Shown: positions 20,758 to 29,720 of the stretch, one piece after another | Layout: each line of letters starts with the position of its first letter | Position numbering within the stretch: position 1 is the stretch's first letter | Assembly (NCBI GenBank): GCA_947630975.1 | Contig: CANRJP010000015.1 | Span: 1-37,333 of the forward strand | From: an uncultured Clostridia bacterium | GTDB taxonomy: Bacteria; Bacillota; Clostridia; UMGS1883 | Direction: 5' to 3' | Length of the DNA: 37,333 nt | Made by a program: the position numbers and the translations under genes | Notes under the pieces: model-generated | Databases searched by the model: none | Told to the model about the DNA's origin: nothing | What the model saw: the letters and a program-made list of their open reading frames with translations, nothing else

Positions 20758-21095
20758 ATGTCAAGTAACAAAACCCATTCAACAGAATTCAAGAAAACCA
20801 TCGTAAATTTGTATCATTCCGGTAAAAGCTGTTCACAGATACACTTGGAGTATGGAGTTTTAACCAGCGCTCTTTCTAAATGGGTAAAGCTTTACTCAGA
20901 GGTCAAAATTGACGACGATACCGTCATTACCGCTCAGCAGATCAAAGGACTTCAAAAGCGCAACGCTCAATTAGAGGAGGAAAATCTCATATTAAAAAAG
21001 CCATTGCAACATTCACTCCACACTTAGACAAAGATTGAACGCCGTCAAGGCCTTTTCCGCCCAACTGGACCAATGTCAATACCAATCAAGTAAAA
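20758..21095 (+). pseudogene. IS3-family transposase remnant (OrfA plus the start of OrfB)
   Basis: OrfA begins at 20758 with GAGAGGAG ahead. It has an HTH region (SCSQIHLEYGVLTSALSKW) and the Leu-rich coiled coil (LQKRNAQLEEENLILKK). At 20994-21000 the sequence is A_AAA_AAG in frame, the slippery site typical of IS3 elements. A -1 shift gives AIATFTPHLDKD, the usual OrfA end; without the shift the frame ends at 21027. The next frame carries an OrfB-like start (LNAVKAFSAQLDQ, about 21035-21075), but the DDE catalytic domain is absent, so the element is dead. Confidence 0.75.
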
Positions 21096-21168: not shown

Positions 21169-21714
21169 ATGAAAGCAACAGGCATCGTGAGGAGGATAGA
21201 CGACCTTGGCAGGGTCGTCATTCCCAAAGAAATTCGCCGCACCCTGCGCATAAGGGAAGGTGACCCGCTGGAGATATTCACCGAGCGGGACGGAGAGGTA
21301 ATTTTCAAGAAGTATTCCCCCATCGGCGAGCTGGGCGACTTCGCCACGGAGTACGCCGAAACGCTGTCCAAGACCAGCGGCTCGCCGGTGCTCATCACCG
21401 ACAAGGACAACGTCATAGCCGTGTCCGGCGCGCCAAGGAAGGAACTTCAGGAAAAGCGCATCAGCGACCGTCTTGAGCAGCTTATGGACGAAAAGCGGCT
21501 TTTCGTCATGGAGCCCGGCGGCAGCGACCCCGTGCCCGTGGTTGACGGGGCGGACAAGTATTTCGCCGGAGTAATGGCCCCCATCATCAGCGAGGGCGAC
21601 ACGATAGGAACCGTAGTCATGGTGACTGACCTCACCGGCGACAGCATGGGGGAAGTGGAGCAGAAGCTCTGCCAGAGCGCCGCCGGGTTTCTTGGCAAGC
21701 ATATGGAAGCATAA
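21169..21714 (+). CDS. spoVT: Stage V sporulation protein T
   Basis: A 181-residue transcription factor of the forespore. The N-terminal SpoVT-AbrB swapped-hairpin DNA-binding domain is unmistakable (MKATGIVRRIDDLGRVVIPKEIRRTLRI). The C-terminal GAF-like domain covers about residues 60-180. In Bacillus, SpoVT adjusts sigma-G genes, which include germinant receptor operons such as the one that follows here. AAAGGAG is 9 bases before the ATG. The stop is followed by a family I repeat carrying a terminator-like hairpin. Confidence 0.95.
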   Translation: MKATGIVRRIDDLGRVVIPKEIRRTLRIREGDPLEIFTERDGEVIFKKYSPIGELGDFATEYAETLSKTSGSPVLITDKDNVIAVSGAPRKELQEKRISDRLEQLMDEKRLFVMEPGGSDPVPVVDGADKYFAGVMAPIISEGDTIGTVVMVTDLTGDSMGEVEQKLCQSAAGFLGKHMEA

Positions 21715-22216: not shown

Positions 22217-22356
22217 CCGTTCTGCACGATTTTTTTGACGGCCCCCGTGCATCCATGTTACAGAGCAACTTATTTTATAGCCCATTTTTAAATTACCGAA
22301 GTTGCCGGAGCGTGTATGTTACCAAATTTTTCGGGGCAAAATATACCGGAGAGGTG

Positions 22357-23973
22357 ATGCCCGTGAAGATCAGGGACATATTTTTATACTCTCCTCCGGA
22401 AAAGGAGGATGAATTTCTGCTGGACGAGCCGGGCCGCCCCGACCCGGACTATGAGCCGCAGATGAACGAGGGCGGCCGGGAGCTGTCGGGCAATTACAAA
22501 AAGGATAAGGCCGCCATGGACACGGCTCTGGCGAAAGATCTGAACGGCGACCTTAAAATCAGGGAGTTCACCCTGAGACTCAGCGGCCGCGACGTCAAAT
22601 GCTGCGCTTATTTCTTCGACGGATTGGTGGACAAGGCCGGCGTCAACGACTTTATCCTCCGTCCCCTGATGATGGGCAGCCGAAGCACCGAAATACGTTC
22701 GTACTCGGATATAATGAACGTGCTTTTGATCCAGAGCGAGGTCAAGGAGACAAACACTCTCGGCACCCTGACCTTCGACGCCAACTACGGCAGCGTTATC
22801 CTGCTTATCGAGGGCTACGGCAAGGCCATATCCGTGGACGCCAAGGGCTGGGAGCACAGGGGCGTTGAGAGTCCCGAGGTGGAAAAGGTCATACGGGGAC
22901 CCAACGACGCTTTCAGCGAACAGATAAGGGAGAGCACCGCCCTCATACGCCATCTGGTGAGGAACAAAAGCCTTGTCAGCAAGGAGTTTTCGGTGGGCAC
23001 CATCAGTCAGACCCCGGTTGCCCTGATGTATTTGCAAAATGTGGCGGGGGAACAGCTCGTCCGTGAGGTGGAACGGCGGATAACCTCCCTGAACATCGAC
23101 TATCTGTTCTCCTCCGCCGAACTGGAGCAGTATCTTGAAGGAAGCTCCCTCATCACCCTGCCCCAGTTCATGGCTACCGAGCGTCCCGACCGGGCGGCCC
23201 GAGCCTTGCTGCTGGGACGGGCGGTGGTGCTGGTGGACGGCTCTCCGTTCGCCATAATCATGCCCACCACGGTCTTTGAGCTGAACGAGTCCGCCGAGGA
23301 TCACTACCTTCGGGTACCCTACGTGAACATGATAAGGGTGATACGGATGATGGCCTTTATCTGCTCCCTGCTGCTGCCGGGCTTGTATGTGGCGGTGGTG
23401 AACTTCCACGGGGAGATACTGCCCACGGATATGCTCATCTCCATTGTGGCGGCACGGGACAAGGTGCCCTTTCCCACCATAGTGGAAATAATCATAATGG
23501 AGCTTTCGCTGGAGATAATCCGTGAGGCCGGCGCACGCGTACCCACTCCCTCGGGCACCACCCTGAGCATCGTCGGTGCCCTGATACTGGGTCAGGCGGC
23601 GGTCAGCGCCGGTATCGTCAGCCCCATACTCATCATAATCGTATCCATAGCGGCCATAGGCTCCTTTGCCACGCCCAACTACTATCTGGGCATTTCCGCC
23701 CGGATACTGCGGTTCGCGTATATTTTTCTGGGGGCGGTGGGAGGCTTTCTGGGCATAACGGCCGGAGTCTTTGTCAACGGCGTGCTCTGGGCCGACACCT
23801 ACAGCATGGGCGTGCCCATGTTCGTGCCCGTGGCCCCCATGACCCACGGCGGAGTGCCCAAAACCCTGCTCTATCCCAGAATATGGAAGCAGGACTACCG
23901 GGACGACTATGTCAACCCCCGGCGCCGCCGGAAGCAGGGATTTTTTTCAGCGGGGTGGAAGCATGGCAAATAA
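22357..23973 (+). CDS. gerAA: GerA-type spore germination protein, A subunit
   Basis: About 538 residues. A large N-terminal soluble domain (to about residue 315) precedes the membrane region with several helices (VIRMMAFICSLLLPGLYVAVV, VGALILGQAAVSAGIVSPIL, AYIFLGAVGGFLGITAG). The cytosolic hallmark block FPTIVEIIIMELSLEIIREAGARVP and the end VPMTHGG-like AVAPMTHGG are typical. GerA A subunits form the spore inner-membrane receptor that responds to nutrients. Start: ATG 22357 is given, but GTG 22363 has better spacing (8 bases) from GGAGAGG and may be the real start. Overlaps gerAB by 11 bases. Confidence 0.93.
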   Translation: MPVKIRDIFLYSPPEKEDEFLLDEPGRPDPDYEPQMNEGGRELSGNYKKDKAAMDTALAKDLNGDLKIREFTLRLSGRDVKCCAYFFDGLVDKAGVNDFILRPLMMGSRSTEIRSYSDIMNVLLIQSEVKETNTLGTLTFDANYGSVILLIEGYGKAISVDAKGWEHRGVESPEVEKVIRGPNDAFSEQIRESTALIRHLVRNKSLVSKEFSVGTISQTPVALMYLQNVAGEQLVREVERRITSLNIDYLFSSAELEQYLEGSSLITLPQFMATERPDRAARALLLGRAVVLVDGSPFAIIMPTTVFELNESAEDHYLRVPYVNMIRVIRMMAFICSLLLPGLYVAVVNFHGEILPTDMLISIVAARDKVPFPTIVEIIIMELSLEIIREAGARVPTPSGTTLSIVGALILGQAAVSAGIVSPILIIIVSIAAIGSFATPNYYLGISARILRFAYIFLGAVGGFLGITAGVFVNGVLWADTYSMGVPMFVPVAPMTHGGVPKTLLYPRIWKQDYRDDYVNPRRRRKQGFFSAGWKHGK

Positions 23974-25063
23974 AAACGACAGAAAGATCGGAGCGGCATC
24001 CCTGTCGATACTGTTTTTCAATCTCGCGCTGGCAAAGTATTTGCTTGTGCTGCCGTATTTCATGGTAAGCGCCGCCGGCAGCGCCGCGTGGATAGCCATA
24101 TTGCTGAAGGGACTGGCGTCGCTGCTGCTGTTCCTGGCGGTGTCCGCCCTGTACAAGCCCTATGTGGAGCTGGGATTGGGCGGATTGACCCGTAAGACCC
24201 TTGGCTCCGCCGTCGGCGGTGCGCTGAACGTGCTGCTCGCCGCCGTAATGGCGGTCAGAGGAGGGCTGCTGTTCCGCATACTGGCCGAGGCCATGCAGAC
24301 CCTTGAAACGGAAAACGCCACCGTGGAATACGTGGCCCTTTTCGTACTGGTGCCGGTGCTGATATGCGCCCTTCGGGGCTTTGGCTCGAATGTCAACGCC
24401 AGCATTCTTATCCTGCCATTTACGGCTCTGTCCGTGATTATGGTTTCGCTGGCGCTGATACCTCACTACAATTTGAACAACCTTATGCCCATTCTGGGAC
24501 TGGGCGCACGTCCCGTGATAATCCACTCCCTCTTTCGGCTCAGCGGGAACTTTGAGATGCTGTACCTGCTGACGCTGTCTCCGGGGGTAAAGGACTACCG
24601 AACCTTCCGCACGGGAGGTCTTGTGGGTATCGGCGCGGTGACGGCGGTGTCCTTCGTTTTAGCCCTGATTTACTGTTTGGCGGTGCCGTACCCGGCCTCC
24701 CGCAACTTCTTCTTTCCCCTTTATCAGTTGACGAGAATGATAAAGGCCGGTTCGTTTTTACAGCGGATGGAGCCTACGGTCATCTTTGTTTGGACGGGCG
24801 TAATAATCTGCGCTCTGTCCACCTCGGTCGTCGCCGGGGGGAGGCTGCTGGATTCCGCCTGCGGGGCCGGAGACCCGAGGGGCTTCATGCCCATGCTGGT
24901 GTTTATCGTATTTTTGGTGGGAACGCTGCCCGCCTCGGAGCTGGACGCCTACGACGTGTACAAGGTTCTGCTGAACTGGAGCCACTACTTTTATATCGCC
25001 TTTGTTTTCACGGTGCTGACGGTTGCCCGGCTGCGCCGGGTCGAAAGGGGGACGGCGGCGTGA
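23963..25063 (+). CDS. gerAB: GerA-type spore germination protein, B subunit
   Basis: A 366-residue integral membrane protein with about ten helices, of the APC-like transporter fold (spore permease). The B subunit binds the germinant in GerA-type receptors. The start at 23963 (MANKNDRKIGAASLSILFFN) is inside the end of gerAA and has GGGGTGGAA ahead; the longer upstream frame overlaps gerAA too far. The stop overlaps the gerAC GTG by 4 bases. Confidence 0.92.
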   Translation: MANKNDRKIGAASLSILFFNLALAKYLLVLPYFMVSAAGSAAWIAILLKGLASLLLFLAVSALYKPYVELGLGGLTRKTLGSAVGGALNVLLAAVMAVRGGLLFRILAEAMQTLETENATVEYVALFVLVPVLICALRGFGSNVNASILILPFTALSVIMVSLALIPHYNLNNLMPILGLGARPVIIHSLFRLSGNFEMLYLLTLSPGVKDYRTFRTGGLVGIGAVTAVSFVLALIYCLAVPYPASRNFFFPLYQLTRMIKAGSFLQRMEPTVIFVWTGVIICALSTSVVAGGRLLDSACGAGDPRGFMPMLVFIVFLVGTLPASELDAYDVYKVLLNWSHYFYIAFVFTVLTVARLRRVERGTAA

Positions 25064-26283
25064 AAAAGCTTGTACTGTGCCTTGCCGCCGCCCTGCTTTT
25101 GGGAGGCTGCGGCACCGTGGCCGAAATAAACGACAAGGCCTACGTCATAGCCGTGGGGCTGGACGAGGGAGACAACGGGCTGCTGAAGGTGACGTATATG
25201 TTCGCCTATCCCAGCGGCGGCGGAGAGGAGGCCGGGGGCGAAAAGACCGACGAAAAGGACATGGTGACGGTGGAGGCCCCCAGCCTGTACAGCGCCATGC
25301 GGCTGCTGGACACCTTCAAGAGTAAGCGCATCGACACCAACCACACAAAATTGGTGGCCTTTTCGCAGAAGCTGGCGGAAAAGCGCGGCATTTTCTCATA
25401 TATGGCGGATCTGGTGAATACCCGGGGCTTCAGGCCAAGCATCTATGTCTGCGTTTCTCAGCAGGAGCCGGATGAGCTGTTCAAGAGCATGGAGCCAAAG
25501 CAGGACGTGTATATCGAAAAGTTCATAGAGCATCTGTTTTCAAAGGTGGCGTCAAGCGGCACCAGCCGGGCCTACCTTTATAACAACTATTTCAGCGCCA
25601 TGGTCGACGAGGGCGGCTATATCCTGCCGCTGGTGGGCGTGACCGACGGCGACAGGGCAAAAACTGCGGCGGAGGGCTATCCGTATAAGCGGCCCGATGA
25701 CTTCGCCCTGAACTATACCGCCGAGGAGGTCCCGCTCTACGGCAAAGGTTCGGCGGCTCTTTGCGGCTGCGCGGTGTTCGTCGGCAACAAAATGGTGGGC
25801 ACTATGGGTCTTATGGAGCGGAGCATAGTTGAGATCTTGGAAAAAAATATGTTCTTCGGTCAGTTCTGCGCCCTTGTGCCCGGCACCGGCAAATATGCCA
25901 ACGTGGCTCTCAGTCAGAACTCCCGTCCCGTTATAAAAATAAAATCCGGCGACGTGCCGGAAATAGATATAGATATAGAACTGCGGGGCGAATATACCGG
26001 CATCGACGGGGCCTTCCACACGCGGGAGGATTACGGCAATTTTGTGGACTATCTGAACCGAACGTTCAGTCAAAAGACCGAGGAGCTGCTGGAGCGCACC
26101 CGAACCGAGTTTGGGGCCGACGTGCTGGGACTGGGGGACAGGGCGAAGATAAACTTCCTCACATATCAGGACTGGAGGGACTACGACTGGAAGAGCCGCT
26201 ACAAAAATGCGGTGTTCAAGGTCAGAGTAAACGTGGACATGAACGACTTCGGCGAGCTCAGATTTTCGCCGGAAAAACGGTAA
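25060..26283 (+). CDS. gerAC: GerA-type spore germination lipoprotein, C subunit
   Basis: A 407-residue Ger(x)C protein. The signal peptide ends in a lipobox LLLGGC (Cys about residue 16), so it is lipid-anchored on the outer face of the inner spore membrane. The NDKAYVIAVGLDEGD start of the mature protein, the DTFKSKRIDTNHTKLVAFSQ block and the C-terminal domain ending FKVRVNVDM are family features. GTG start overlapping gerAB (GTGA) indicates coupled translation. Which germinant the receptor sees cannot be told. Confidence 0.93.
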   Translation: MKKLVLCLAAALLLGGCGTVAEINDKAYVIAVGLDEGDNGLLKVTYMFAYPSGGGEEAGGEKTDEKDMVTVEAPSLYSAMRLLDTFKSKRIDTNHTKLVAFSQKLAEKRGIFSYMADLVNTRGFRPSIYVCVSQQEPDELFKSMEPKQDVYIEKFIEHLFSKVASSGTSRAYLYNNYFSAMVDEGGYILPLVGVTDGDRAKTAAEGYPYKRPDDFALNYTAEEVPLYGKGSAALCGCAVFVGNKMVGTMGLMERSIVEILEKNMFFGQFCALVPGTGKYANVALSQNSRPVIKIKSGDVPEIDIDIELRGEYTGIDGAFHTREDYGNFVDYLNRTFSQKTEELLERTRTEFGADVLGLGDRAKINFLTYQDWRDYDWKSRYKNAVFKVRVNVDMNDFGELRFSPEKR

Positions 26284-26298
26284 ACGGAGGCGGTAACG

Positions 26299-26466
26299 GT
26301 GTATTTTCTGCAATACGCGGCTCTGGCGGCCTTTGCCCTGGCGGCGGCGCGTACCTTTTCCTTTGGGGTGTACGGCCTCCGCCGGGGAAAGACCGGAGTT
26401 TTTGCCCTGACGGCGGTCATGCTTGTTTCCGCCGCCGTGCTGATGTGGCTGTATTTGAGCCGTTAG
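26299..26466 (+). CDS. Small two-helix membrane protein, fourth gene of the ger operon
   Basis: A 55-residue frame with GTG start at 26299, GGAGG 8 bases ahead and only 15 bases after gerAC. It has two hydrophobic helices (about residues 3-22 and 33-51) joined by a short basic loop (YGLRRGKTG). Some GerA-type operons in Bacillus encode a small two-helix D subunit that modulates the receptor. Size, topology and position here fit that class, though sequence similarity is untested. The stop is 5 bases from the stop of the convergent mutS2. Confidence 0.7.
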   Translation: MYFLQYAALAAFALAAARTFSFGVYGLRRGKTGVFALTAVMLVSAAVLMWLYLSR

Positions 26467-26471
26467 CTCCC

Positions 26472-28844
26472 TCACTTTATCTCGACTATTGTGACGCCCG
26501 TCTCGCCCTCGCCGTACTTGCCAAGGCGGAAGCTTTTGGCGTGGGGATGGTGGCGGAGCAGGTCGTGAATGGCGGAGCGCAAAGCTCCGGTGCCCTTGCC
26601 GTGGATTATGCTCACGGTCTCGAGGTGAGCCATGGCCGCCTGATCCAGATATTTGTCGGCGGCCATTATAGCCTCGTCCGCAAGCTGCCCTCGCAGGTCT
26701 ATCTCGCTCTTGACGGCGGCCACGCTGCCGCTGCTGCCGGGGCGGTACTCGGCGGCCCGCTTTTTCTTTTCGGCCTTCGCCTCCCGCAGGGCGGTGACGT
26801 TGGCGGTGATTTTCAGTATGCCCATCTGAACCTGAACGTTGCCGTTTTTGTCGGGCAGGGTGAGCAGGGTGCCGTTCTGGTTCATGGTGGTGACCTCCAC
26901 CTCCATGCCGAGCCTGAGTTTTTTCGGGTCGATGGAGCCGCCCTTGGCGCTGAACACGTCCTCGCTTATGGATTCCTCCATTTTGCCCATGTTCTGGCGC
27001 AGCTTCCGCCGCCCCTCCTCTATGGCCTTAAGGTTGTCCTCCCGGGCGTTCTTGAGCAGGGCCTGCATCTCGTGAACGATGGCGTCGGCCTCCTTCTTGG
27101 CCTGTTCGTAGACCCGCTTCGCGTCCCGTCGGGCGTCGGAGAGTATTTTTTCCTTCTGCTTCTCCACGGTCTCCCGCTGGCGAAGGGCGCTGTCACGGGC
27201 GGCGAGGGTCTCGGCCCGTGCCGCCTCCGCTCCCTCCAGCTCCCGCTGGGCGGCGGCGCGGCTGGCCTCGAGTGATGAAATTACGTCCTCGAAGCGGATA
27301 TTGTCATTGTTCACAAGCTGCCGGGCCCGGTCGATGACCTCCTCCTCCAGCCCCAGCCGTTTGGAAATGGCAAAGGCGTTGCTCTTGCCGGGGACGCCGA
27401 TGAGGAGCCTGTAGGTAGGGCGCAGACTTTCCACGTCGAACTCGCAGGCGGCGTTTTCCACTCCCGGCGTGGACAGGGCGTAGAGCTTCAGCTCGCTGTA
27501 ATGGGTGGTGGCGGCGGTGCGGGCGCCCACGCTCCGCACCCTCTCCAGTATGGCGGTGGCAAGGGCCGCGCCCTCCACCGGGTCGGTTCCGGCGCCAAGC
27601 TCGTCGAAGAGCACAAGGGAGCGGTGGTCGGCCTTTTTCAGTATGTCGATGATGTTCACGATGTGCGAGCTGAAGGTGCTTAGTGACTGCTCGATGGACT
27701 GTTCGTCGCCGATGTCGGCGAATACCTGACCGAACACGGCTATCTCGCTCTCCTCCGAGGCGGGAATGTGAAGCCCGGCCTGGGCCATCAGGGTCAGCAG
27801 TCCCAGCGTTTTCAGGGAAACGGTCTTGCCGCCGGTGTTGGGACCGGTTACGATGAGGGTGTCGAAGTCCGTACCCAGATAGATGTCCGTGGGCACCACC
27901 CTGTTTTTGTCTATCAGCGGGTGCCGGCCTTTTTTTATATTTACCCGTCCCTCGCTGTTGAGCCGGGGCGGATTTCCGTCCATGGAGCGGGAAAGCTTGC
28001 CCTTGGCGAAAATGAAGTCCAGCTCCATTATGGCGTCGTAGTCGGCGGCGATGAGCTCGGCGTCCTGTGCCACTCTTTGGGAAAACTCCGTGAGGATTTT
28101 TTCAATCTCCTCCTGCTCCTCGCCCAAAAGGGCACGGAGCTTGTTGTTTATCTCCACCGCCGCCATGGGCTCCACAAAGATGGTGGCTCCGCTGGCGGAG
28201 CTGTCGTGGATTATGCCGGGGACGGAGGCGCGGTACTCGCTCTTGACGGGTATTACGAAGCGGTCCCCCCGCATGGTGACGATGGCGTCCTGAAGCAGGG
28301 CGCTGTATTTTGGGGACTTTATCATGTCGTTCAGCACGTCCCGAACCTTGTTGTTCAGGTTGTGAATTTGGCGGCGGATGCGGCCCAGCTCGGGAGAAGC
28401 CTCGTCGGCTATCTCCTCCTCGCTGAGGATAGCGCCGAAGATGCTCTGTTCAAGCTTCCTGTCCTCTTCCAGTCCGGCGGCGGCTATTGAGATCTGGGGG
28501 AAGTCCTCCTCTGGGGCGTCACCGTCGAGATAGCCGATGAGATTTCGAGCTATCCGCAGACAGTGAGCCACGCACAGCAGGTCGCTCATGGTGAGCACTC
28601 CGCCGGCGGCGGCCCGCATGGCGGCGGCTTTAGCGTTTTTAATGGGGCTTATGGGCGGAGCGCCCTTTTTTATTATAAGATTTTCGGCCTCGGTGGTCTG
28701 GGCTATGAGGCGGGTCACCTCGTAGATGTCGTCGCCGGGCGTCAGCTCCAGACAGCGGTCTCTGGTGCCGGCGCAGACCGCGCCCTGGGCCAGTCGGCCG
28801 GTTATTTTGTCGAATTCAAGAATTCGAAGGGCCTTGGGTTCCAT
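26472..28844 (-). CDS. mutS2: Endonuclease MutS2
   Basis: A 790-residue MutS2. The core/lever and ATPase regions carry Walker A (VTGPNTGGKTVSLKTLGL), Walker B (SLVLFDELGAGTDP) and the ATTHYSELK segment. A long coiled coil (about 510-630) and KOW-like region follow. The Smr nuclease domain is at the C-terminus (EIDLRGQLADEA, HGKGTGALR). MutS2 acts on branched DNA and, in Bacillus, on collided ribosomes. AGGAAGTG precedes the ATG. It has its own promoter and is divergent from the HprK-like gene. Confidence 0.96.
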   Translation of the reverse strand: MEPKALRILEFDKITGRLAQGAVCAGTRDRCLELTPGDDIYEVTRLIAQTTEAENLIIKKGAPPISPIKNAKAAAMRAAAGGVLTMSDLLCVAHCLRIARNLIGYLDGDAPEEDFPQISIAAAGLEEDRKLEQSIFGAILSEEEIADEASPELGRIRRQIHNLNNKVRDVLNDMIKSPKYSALLQDAIVTMRGDRFVIPVKSEYRASVPGIIHDSSASGATIFVEPMAAVEINNKLRALLGEEQEEIEKILTEFSQRVAQDAELIAADYDAIMELDFIFAKGKLSRSMDGNPPRLNSEGRVNIKKGRHPLIDKNRVVPTDIYLGTDFDTLIVTGPNTGGKTVSLKTLGLLTLMAQAGLHIPASEESEIAVFGQVFADIGDEQSIEQSLSTFSSHIVNIIDILKKADHRSLVLFDELGAGTDPVEGAALATAILERVRSVGARTAATTHYSELKLYALSTPGVENAACEFDVESLRPTYRLLIGVPGKSNAFAISKRLGLEEEVIDRARQLVNNDNIRFEDVISSLEASRAAAQRELEGAEAARAETLAARDSALRQRETVEKQKEKILSDARRDAKRVYEQAKKEADAIVHEMQALLKNAREDNLKAIEEGRRKLRQNMGKMEESISEDVFSAKGGSIDPKKLRLGMEVEVTTMNQNGTLLTLPDKNGNVQVQMGILKITANVTALREAKAEKKKRAAEYRPGSSGSVAAVKSEIDLRGQLADEAIMAADKYLDQAAMAHLETVSIIHGKGTGALRSAIHDLLRHHPHAKSFRLGKYGEGETGVTIVEIK

Positions 28845-28970: not shown

Positions 28971-28988
28971 ATATTTGAGGTGTTGAAA

Positions 28989-29720
28989 GTGCTTATTAAA
29001 ATCGCCGAAATGATAATAAAAATAAACTGCCGCTACGAATATCTGCCCTGGCTCTGTCAGAAATACATAATAGAGGAGGGCGAGCCCCTCTTTGAAATAA
29101 ACGTCACCCAGGAGGAGATAGAGACGGATCACCGGCTCATACTTGAGGAGCTGGGCTATGACCACGATCCGGGCTATCTGGAGAGCCTCGAAGCCTACCG
29201 TAAGATATGCATCAAGGCCCTCGAGTACGGGGCCATGTTCCTCCACAGCGCCTGCATCGCCGTGGATGGAGAGGCCTACTGCTTCACCGCCGACAGCGGT
29301 ACGGGCAAGAGCACCCACATCCGCCTGTGGAAGAAGCTTTTCGGCGATAGAGCCGTGATAGTCAACGGGGACAAGCCCCTTATTCGCAAGTTCGGCGGCC
29401 GCTACTATGTGTACGGCACTCCATGGTGCGGCAAAGAGGGCTGGAGCGAGAACATGGGCGCCCCAATCAAGGCTCTTTGTCTTGTGGAGCGCAGTCCCGA
29501 CAACCGCATTGCCCCCATGGACGGCTTCAATGTAATTTATACTATAATTGAACAGACCATCCGTCCCCGCACTCAGGATCAGCTTGACGCGGTGCTGGAC
29601 ATAATGGACGGCCTTTTAAGCAGTGTGCCCATGTACCGCCTGGGCTGCAATATGGAGGACGAGGCCGCCGTCGTGGCCTACGAGGGCATGAGCGGGAGGA
29701 AGTTAAAAAATGATGAATGA
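28989..29720 (+). CDS. HPr kinase/PEPCK-fold P-loop protein
   Basis: About 243 residues. The P-loop TADSGTGKSTHIRLW, preceded by FLHSACIAVDGEAYCF, is the HprK-like fold found in stand-alone kinases linked to peptide modification, such as lasso-peptide kinases and ScmC-like proteins. NGDKPLI follows as the second metal/nucleotide motif. The Ser-HPr-specific features of true HprK and its N-terminal domain are absent. Start: GTG 28989, with TTGAGGTG 6 bases ahead, is preferred over GTG 28980, which lies inside that site. No precursor peptide or modifying enzyme is next to it. The stop codon is formed at the edge of a family IV repeat. Confidence 0.75.
   Translation: MLIKIAEMIIKINCRYEYLPWLCQKYIIEEGEPLFEINVTQEEIETDHRLILEELGYDHDPGYLESLEAYRKICIKALEYGAMFLHSACIAVDGEAYCFTADSGTGKSTHIRLWKKLFGDRAVIVNGDKPLIRKFGGRYYVYGTPWCGKEGWSENMGAPIKALCLVERSPDNRIAPMDGFNVIYTIIEQTIRPRTQDQLDAVLDIMDGLLSSVPMYRLGCNMEDEAAVVAYEGMSGRKLKNDE

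Follow-up and report, generated by a model that had tools for sequence, protein, structure and literature searches.

The gerA-gerB-gerC operon in the window, the 37,333-nucleotide stretch of DNA from an uncultured Clostridia bacterium that was analysed as a whole, ends with a fourth gene encoding a predicted two-helix membrane protein of 55 residues that belongs to a family termed here D-short. The D-short frame is a real, conserved protein-coding gene rather than a chance frame, and its inheritance follows one clade of the GerC lipoprotein. The protein is best described as a putative D-type subunit of a particular germination receptor lineage, without detectable relation to GerUD of Bacillus megaterium. 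The probability that D-short is an accessory inner-membrane subunit of one GerA-type receptor lineage, setting its stability or its germinant sensitivity, is estimated at roughly 0.65.

The ger operon and its fourth gene

The operon lies on the forward strand and comprises gerA (22357..23973; Pfam PF03323), the spore permease gene gerB (23963..25063; PF03845) and gerC (25060..26283; PF25198 and PF05504), which encodes the Ger(x)C lipoprotein and has a GTG start. The first two genes overlap by 11 nt, and the gerB stop overlaps the gerC GTG by 4 nt. The start of gerA was placed by choice at the ATG at 22357, with a GTG at 22363 as the alternative, and the Pfam scan was made on the frame from 22360. 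The gerC stop at 26281-26283 is followed, after a gap of 15 nt, by the D-short gene (26299..26466, forward strand), which runs from GTG to TAG over 55 codons and is preceded at a distance of 8 nt by a GGAGG ribosome site (26286..26290, same strand). The first-pass annotation had proposed a frame of this length with a good ribosome site 15 bases after gerC, and had read it as a fourth gene of the gerABC operon; both proposals are borne out by this arrangement. D-short is the last gene of the operon, as mutS2 on the opposite strand ends at 26472 and the 5 bases between the two stops leave no room for a further operon gene downstream. A single GerC match was found in the genome that carries the window, and D-short adjoins that gerC.

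The operon is flanked by mutS2 on one side and, directly upstream, by spoVT (21169-21714; NCBIfam TIGR02851 over cut-off). A conserved spoVT/mutS2 neighbourhood was considered and rejected; tblastn searches with the window proteins (E 0.001) found neither gene in any of 20 stretches of related DNA, each 5 to 16 kb long, and both were therefore left outside the system. An Rfam scan of the window gave no match above the gathering score. Elsewhere in the window, a 246-codon frame at 28980-29720 carries a P-loop-like motif recognized by eye, TADSGTGKSTH, and has no Pfam match up to E 1. Just 5′ of spoVT, an 89-codon frame (20758-21027), judged by eye, resembles the first part of an IS3-type transposase and is possibly a remnant.

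A possible promoter upstream of gerA, GTATG-N18-CAAAATA (22314..22343, forward strand), is sigma-G-like when judged against the sigma-G consensus. It scores 11 of 12, a value equalled in 15 of 200 base shuffles. Scores of 11 or 12 were found in three of 13 relatives, in which the gerA start was taken as the start of the tblastn match and not as a mapped start codon; two of these sites (G003 and G010) occupy a place similar to that in the window, and the third (G079) lies further upstream. The evidence for this site is weak, and this, together with the lower scores in the other 10 relatives, is counted against an accessory subunit.

Conservation and coding evidence

The conservation of the frame after gerC in related genomes, one of the checks proposed by the first-pass annotation, was followed from the genus outwards. 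A tblastn search with the window protein found relatives in six of the seven other genus genomes (E 3.3e-21 to 2.3e-7); in the remaining one, G002, GerC itself has no match at E 0.001. Beyond the genus, the same search gave only chance-level matches, at E 0.147 or worse, in four of 32 genomes. A small hydrophobic D-short frame was present downstream of gerC in all 16 family loci read, including one that is cut by a contig end (G008) and one that the start-codon rule overlooked (G003, where ATA stands in place of a start codon); no GerC match was obtained in five of the 21 family genomes searched. The search of the family for relatives that lack the frame or carry stops in it, either of which had been named as grounds for giving it up, thus left the frame standing.

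The start region varies within the genus. In two genomes, G003 (L018) and G001 (L019), the position of the D-short start just after gerC reads ATA and is preceded by a G-rich stretch. The first in-frame ATG, GTG or TTG in G003 comes no earlier than halfway along helix 1; in G001, an ATG occurs in frame 38 nt upstream of the gerC stop. At a further locus, L031 in G017, the gerC match is broken by three stops and the D-short frame downstream is open.

Codon comparison of six pairs of D-short genes gave dS/dN values of 0.67/0.16 (the window gene versus that of G007), 0.63/0.04, 0.92/0.24 and 0.93/0.18 for the four closest pairs, and of 0.98/0.39 and 1.69/0.35 for the two wider ones. This pattern reflects purifying selection on a protein, with non-synonymous change of about the same order as in gerC. 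Two-helix frames of 38-110 codons are also strongly enriched 3′ of gerC in general, being found at 104 of 170 loci (those among 175 with 400 nt downstream free of N), compared with a mean of 2.8 and a maximum of 7 in 50 shuffles of the same loci and with 7 on the reverse strand.

Two families of small proteins encoded after gerC

Two sets, D-short and D-long, account for most of the frames after gerC. D-short proteins have 49-61 residues and a majority motif near YTxSYGxYxxKxxN that covers the end of helix 1 and the turn, and their alignment (A1, 46 members) has no invariant or nearly invariant column. D-long proteins have 69-79 residues in their alignment (A2) and mostly 69-84 overall, with an ExPxLxK...KELxxF signature and a C-terminal PxP part. 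Comparison of the two profiles with hhalign gave a probability of 3.9%, and no relation is visible. The profile of the family to which the window belongs (15 sequences) matched the D-short profile of the class built without that family (31 sequences) with a probability of 97.7% and an E-value of 2.2e-12.

Counted by loci and not by genomes, D-short follows gerC at all 16 loci of the family. Among 120 loci of the class, D-short is found at 33 and D-long at 41, gerB comes next at 13, an unassigned two-helix frame at four and none at 29. Nine loci from other families of the order have gerB next in six cases, no frame in two and D-long in one; the lack of D-short at all nine is counted against the accessory-subunit reading. 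In the wider phylum, 30 loci comprise 21 with D-long, seven with gerB next, one unassigned and one without a frame. The class and phylum loci are a non-random selection consisting of the best-scoring GerCs, 60 further chosen places and 30 loci from 42 chosen genomes with a single GerC. Two loci were left uncounted, L028 because its gerC is cut by a contig end and L030 because it is the same gene as L032, and a frame at L106 in the order that the hydrophobicity scan scored as two-helix appears spurious, this locus being filed as gerB next. The HMM label is circular for 15 of the 16 family loci, since these helped to build profile A1; support independent of that profile comes from the tblastn search with the window protein alone and from the comparison of the family profile with the class profile made without it.

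D-long constitutes a second, unnamed two-helix family located after gerC in many clostridia and some Bacillales (loci L038 to L203, and L268, L269 and L272). Plasmids of Paenibacillus polymyxa, Cytobacillus spongiae and Peribacillus likewise encode it 3′ of gerC, and tblastn searches of the plasmid collection with single D-short proteins gave no match. Six clostridial D-long proteins had no Pfam or NCBIfam match above cut-off, and three from Bacillales had none in Pfam. Some genomes, for example G030, G033 and G134, carry both families, each beside its own gerC.

Linkage to gerC and to one GerC lineage

At a threshold of E 0.01, the D-short profile matched 66 of 196 class genomes. Its 63 strongest places (E 1.1e-5 or better, in 58 genomes), of which 36 are in the profile and 27 outside it, all lie on the same strand as a GerC match and at most 298 nt after it, with a median distance between the two domains of 48 nt; our own scan supplied the GerC position for four of the 63. 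An in-frame stop interrupts two of the 63 (G172 and G070), which is counted against a subunit function. Among 17 weaker places, two are beside a GerC and the rest look like chance. At a threshold of E 0.001, the profile matched 28 of 199 genomes of the wider phylum, that of the window included, and the family is therefore not confined to the class. Five of these phylum loci were read, and D-short follows gerC on the same strand in four. The fifth, L281 in G245, has D-short beside gerC on the opposite strand, and this too weighs against an accessory subunit. The gene order in G136 is A-C-D-B, which indicates that D-short stays with gerC rather than with the end of the operon. The D-short proteins at L283 (G388) and L150 (G077) are identical over the matched stretch although their genomes belong to different groups, as would result from transfer or from contamination of metagenome bins.

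A FastTree phylogeny was made from the C-terminal parts of 174 GerC proteins, with L031 left out on account of its broken gerC. A single branch with a support value of 100 sets off 51 tips, and all 48 D-short tips are among them, so that D-short marks one receptor lineage. Its presence requires four state changes on the tree, compared with at least 35 in 300 shuffles of the labels, and no D-long locus falls within the clade. For the other three GerCs of the clade (G086, G095 and G207), D-short was not detected around the operon, which is likewise counted against the accessory-subunit reading; a small two-helix frame was seen around the operon of G095 alone and is unlike D-short.

Predicted structure and membrane orientation

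The two membrane helices ascribed to the frame by the first-pass annotation are recovered both by the hydrophobicity scan of the window protein and by AlphaFold2, where the best of five single-sequence models predicts a helical hairpin with helices at residues 3-29 and 33-54 (mean pLDDT 80.5, pTM 0.47). A fold search with this hairpin gave no PDB match at E 0.001 or better and 34 at E 2 to 10, which is uninformative for a hairpin of 55 residues. Of the 46 aligned members, 39 have a loop with a net positive charge. Compared with both ends together, the loop is more positive in 30 members, equal in eight and less positive in eight, and the 16 in which it does not exceed the ends are counted against the accessory-subunit reading. 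The positive turn of the predicted hairpin would be expected to face the spore core. The same topology as in the Bacillus D subunits had also been proposed, and on this point the analysis departs from the earlier claim; passages of PMC4661057 describe the loop of GerUD as mapped outward by fusion data, and the charge of the D-short loop, taken by itself, suggests the opposite orientation.

Comparison with known small receptor proteins

D-short resembles GerUD and other Bacillus D subunits in being a small two-helix membrane protein with short termini, encoded in or beside a gerA-type operon. The differences are in size, loop and gene position. GerUD has 76 residues and an outward loop of 20 residues, whereas D-short has 49-61 residues and a short basic loop predicted to face inward; the gerUD gene, identified here on pBM700, is divergent and upstream of gerUA, whereas D-short follows gerC. 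Profile comparison of D-short with GerUD by hhalign gave 0.5%, with no detectable relation, and comparison with one Paenibacillus D-long plasmid protein gave 0.1%. Given these values and the 3.9% obtained for the D-long profile, direct kinship to GerUD or to D-long was dropped; of the named Bacillus D subunits, the comparison covered GerUD. D-long shares with D-short the position after gerC, the two helices and a basic loop, and differs in its additional C-terminal part with a P-x-P motif, in the lack of a profile relation and in falling outside the D-short GerC clade.

Within Pfam, a point of contact is the family PF13129 (DUF3953), which has no assigned function. At a threshold of E 0.01 it reaches five of the 46 D-short members, the best match having an E-value of 4.8e-15. 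It does not match the window protein, for which Pfam, NCBIfam and PHROGs were all without a match, and it exceeds the gathering cut-off in two of 10 members scanned singly. Among the 196 class genomes it is over cut-off in four, always at D-short places, compared with 58 genomes for the D-short profile at E 1.1e-5. The model also has matches in two control genomes, those of Bacillus subtilis and Sulfolobus acidocaldarius, and exceeds its cut-off in one. The shared place, size class and two helices, along with the reach of DUF3953 to both D-short members and B. subtilis, would fit a true homologue of the Bacillus D subunits that has diverged past recognition. The three profile comparisons, made with GerUD, D-long and the Paenibacillus D-long protein, speak against such descent, which is rated as unlikely; being a statement on descent, it is compatible with the accessory-subunit reading.

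The proposal that proteins of this kind are little described in clostridia agrees with the literature searched. Among the titles, abstracts and passages retrieved from open-licence papers, none describes the D-short family. The nearest clostridial passage, in PMC5083711, concerns Clostridium botulinum Group III and describes a putative subunit of 74 residues, GerX(x), as well as a conserved hypothetical protein of small size next to a different receptor cluster; it also refers to unrelated small proteins described earlier near receptor clusters. GerX(x) resembles D-short as a small hypothetical protein and putative subunit in a clostridial ger cluster, and is set apart, on the description in those passages, by its length, its one predicted helix and its A-C-x-B-B-B cluster. 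Passages of PMC4161481 describe operons of three to five genes and do not use the term D subunit, and those of PMC11841064, PMC3994143 and PMC8863042 treat Bacillus D subunits in a sentence or two. According to the passage of PMC8863042, D subunits went undetected in that Bacillus study, and an untargeted proteomic survey may likewise overlook D-short. A study of D proteins by Ramirez-Peralta et al. (2013) is cited in passages of PMC4661057.

Possible function in the germination receptor

As a subunit, D-short would be expressed in the forespore along with the receptor. In the inner membrane of the spore it would form a helical hairpin whose basic turn, RRGK, faces the core and whose two ends lie outside. 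The hairpin may pack against membrane-embedded portions of the receptor or close to the anchor of GerC, and this packing could set receptor stability or germinant sensitivity, by analogy with the role of GerUD for GerU in B. megaterium. Passages of PMC4661057 report that the apparent Km of GerU is higher in the absence of GerUD, at 7.5 mM instead of 1.7 mM for glucose and at 5.4 mM instead of 1.7 mM for proline. That D-short is functionally a D subunit is suggested by this analogy. A further step would make D-short the dedicated fourth subunit of a receptor lineage that is distinct and widespread, with an origin separate from that of the Bacillus D subunits and with an inverted orientation in the membrane. 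Two-helix subunits would on that view have been recruited to germination receptors on at least three occasions (D-short, D-long and GerUD); this is put forward tentatively, at about one chance in three.

The same passages of PMC4661057 lend themselves to another interpretation, in which the hairpin assists only the insertion of GerA, GerB or GerC in the forespore, as a chaperone or placeholder helix, and stays outside the mature receptor. Single helices and even a reversed GerUD were still functional, which argues for a non-specific membrane role, and its authors proposed a chaperone function for GerUD. The motif shared among D-short proteins and their co-inheritance with one GerC clade suggest a specific partner instead, and a helper in assembly only is given about one chance in five. 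Still less probable is a small membrane protein with a separate role in sporulation that merely rides in the operon. Such a protein would be in keeping with the three of 51 tips in the receptor lineage where D-short was not detected, and it sits poorly with a gene that is beside gerC at all 63 strong places in the class and follows gerC in G136 even though gerB is last there. A chance open frame without product can be dismissed, for although a comparable two-helix frame arises in 34 of 2000 dinucleotide shuffles of the sequence downstream of gerC in the window, and the GTG start and the ATA in two genus genomes could be read in the same way, the conservation, the codon pattern and the linkage to gerC stand against it.

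The accessory-subunit reading is thereby preferred. As a real and conserved gene that travels with one receptor lineage in many clostridia, D-short is probably a little-noticed fourth part of the receptor switch that wakes spores. Its family is very short and few of its members are reached by the library models searched, so that descriptions of clostridial receptors as products of three genes may be incomplete. The operon in the window encodes the only GerA-type receptor found in its genome, and a fourth subunit would therefore belong to the one known nutrient switch of these spores. With a defined receptor lineage now named, the role of D subunits could be addressed there by one small deletion.
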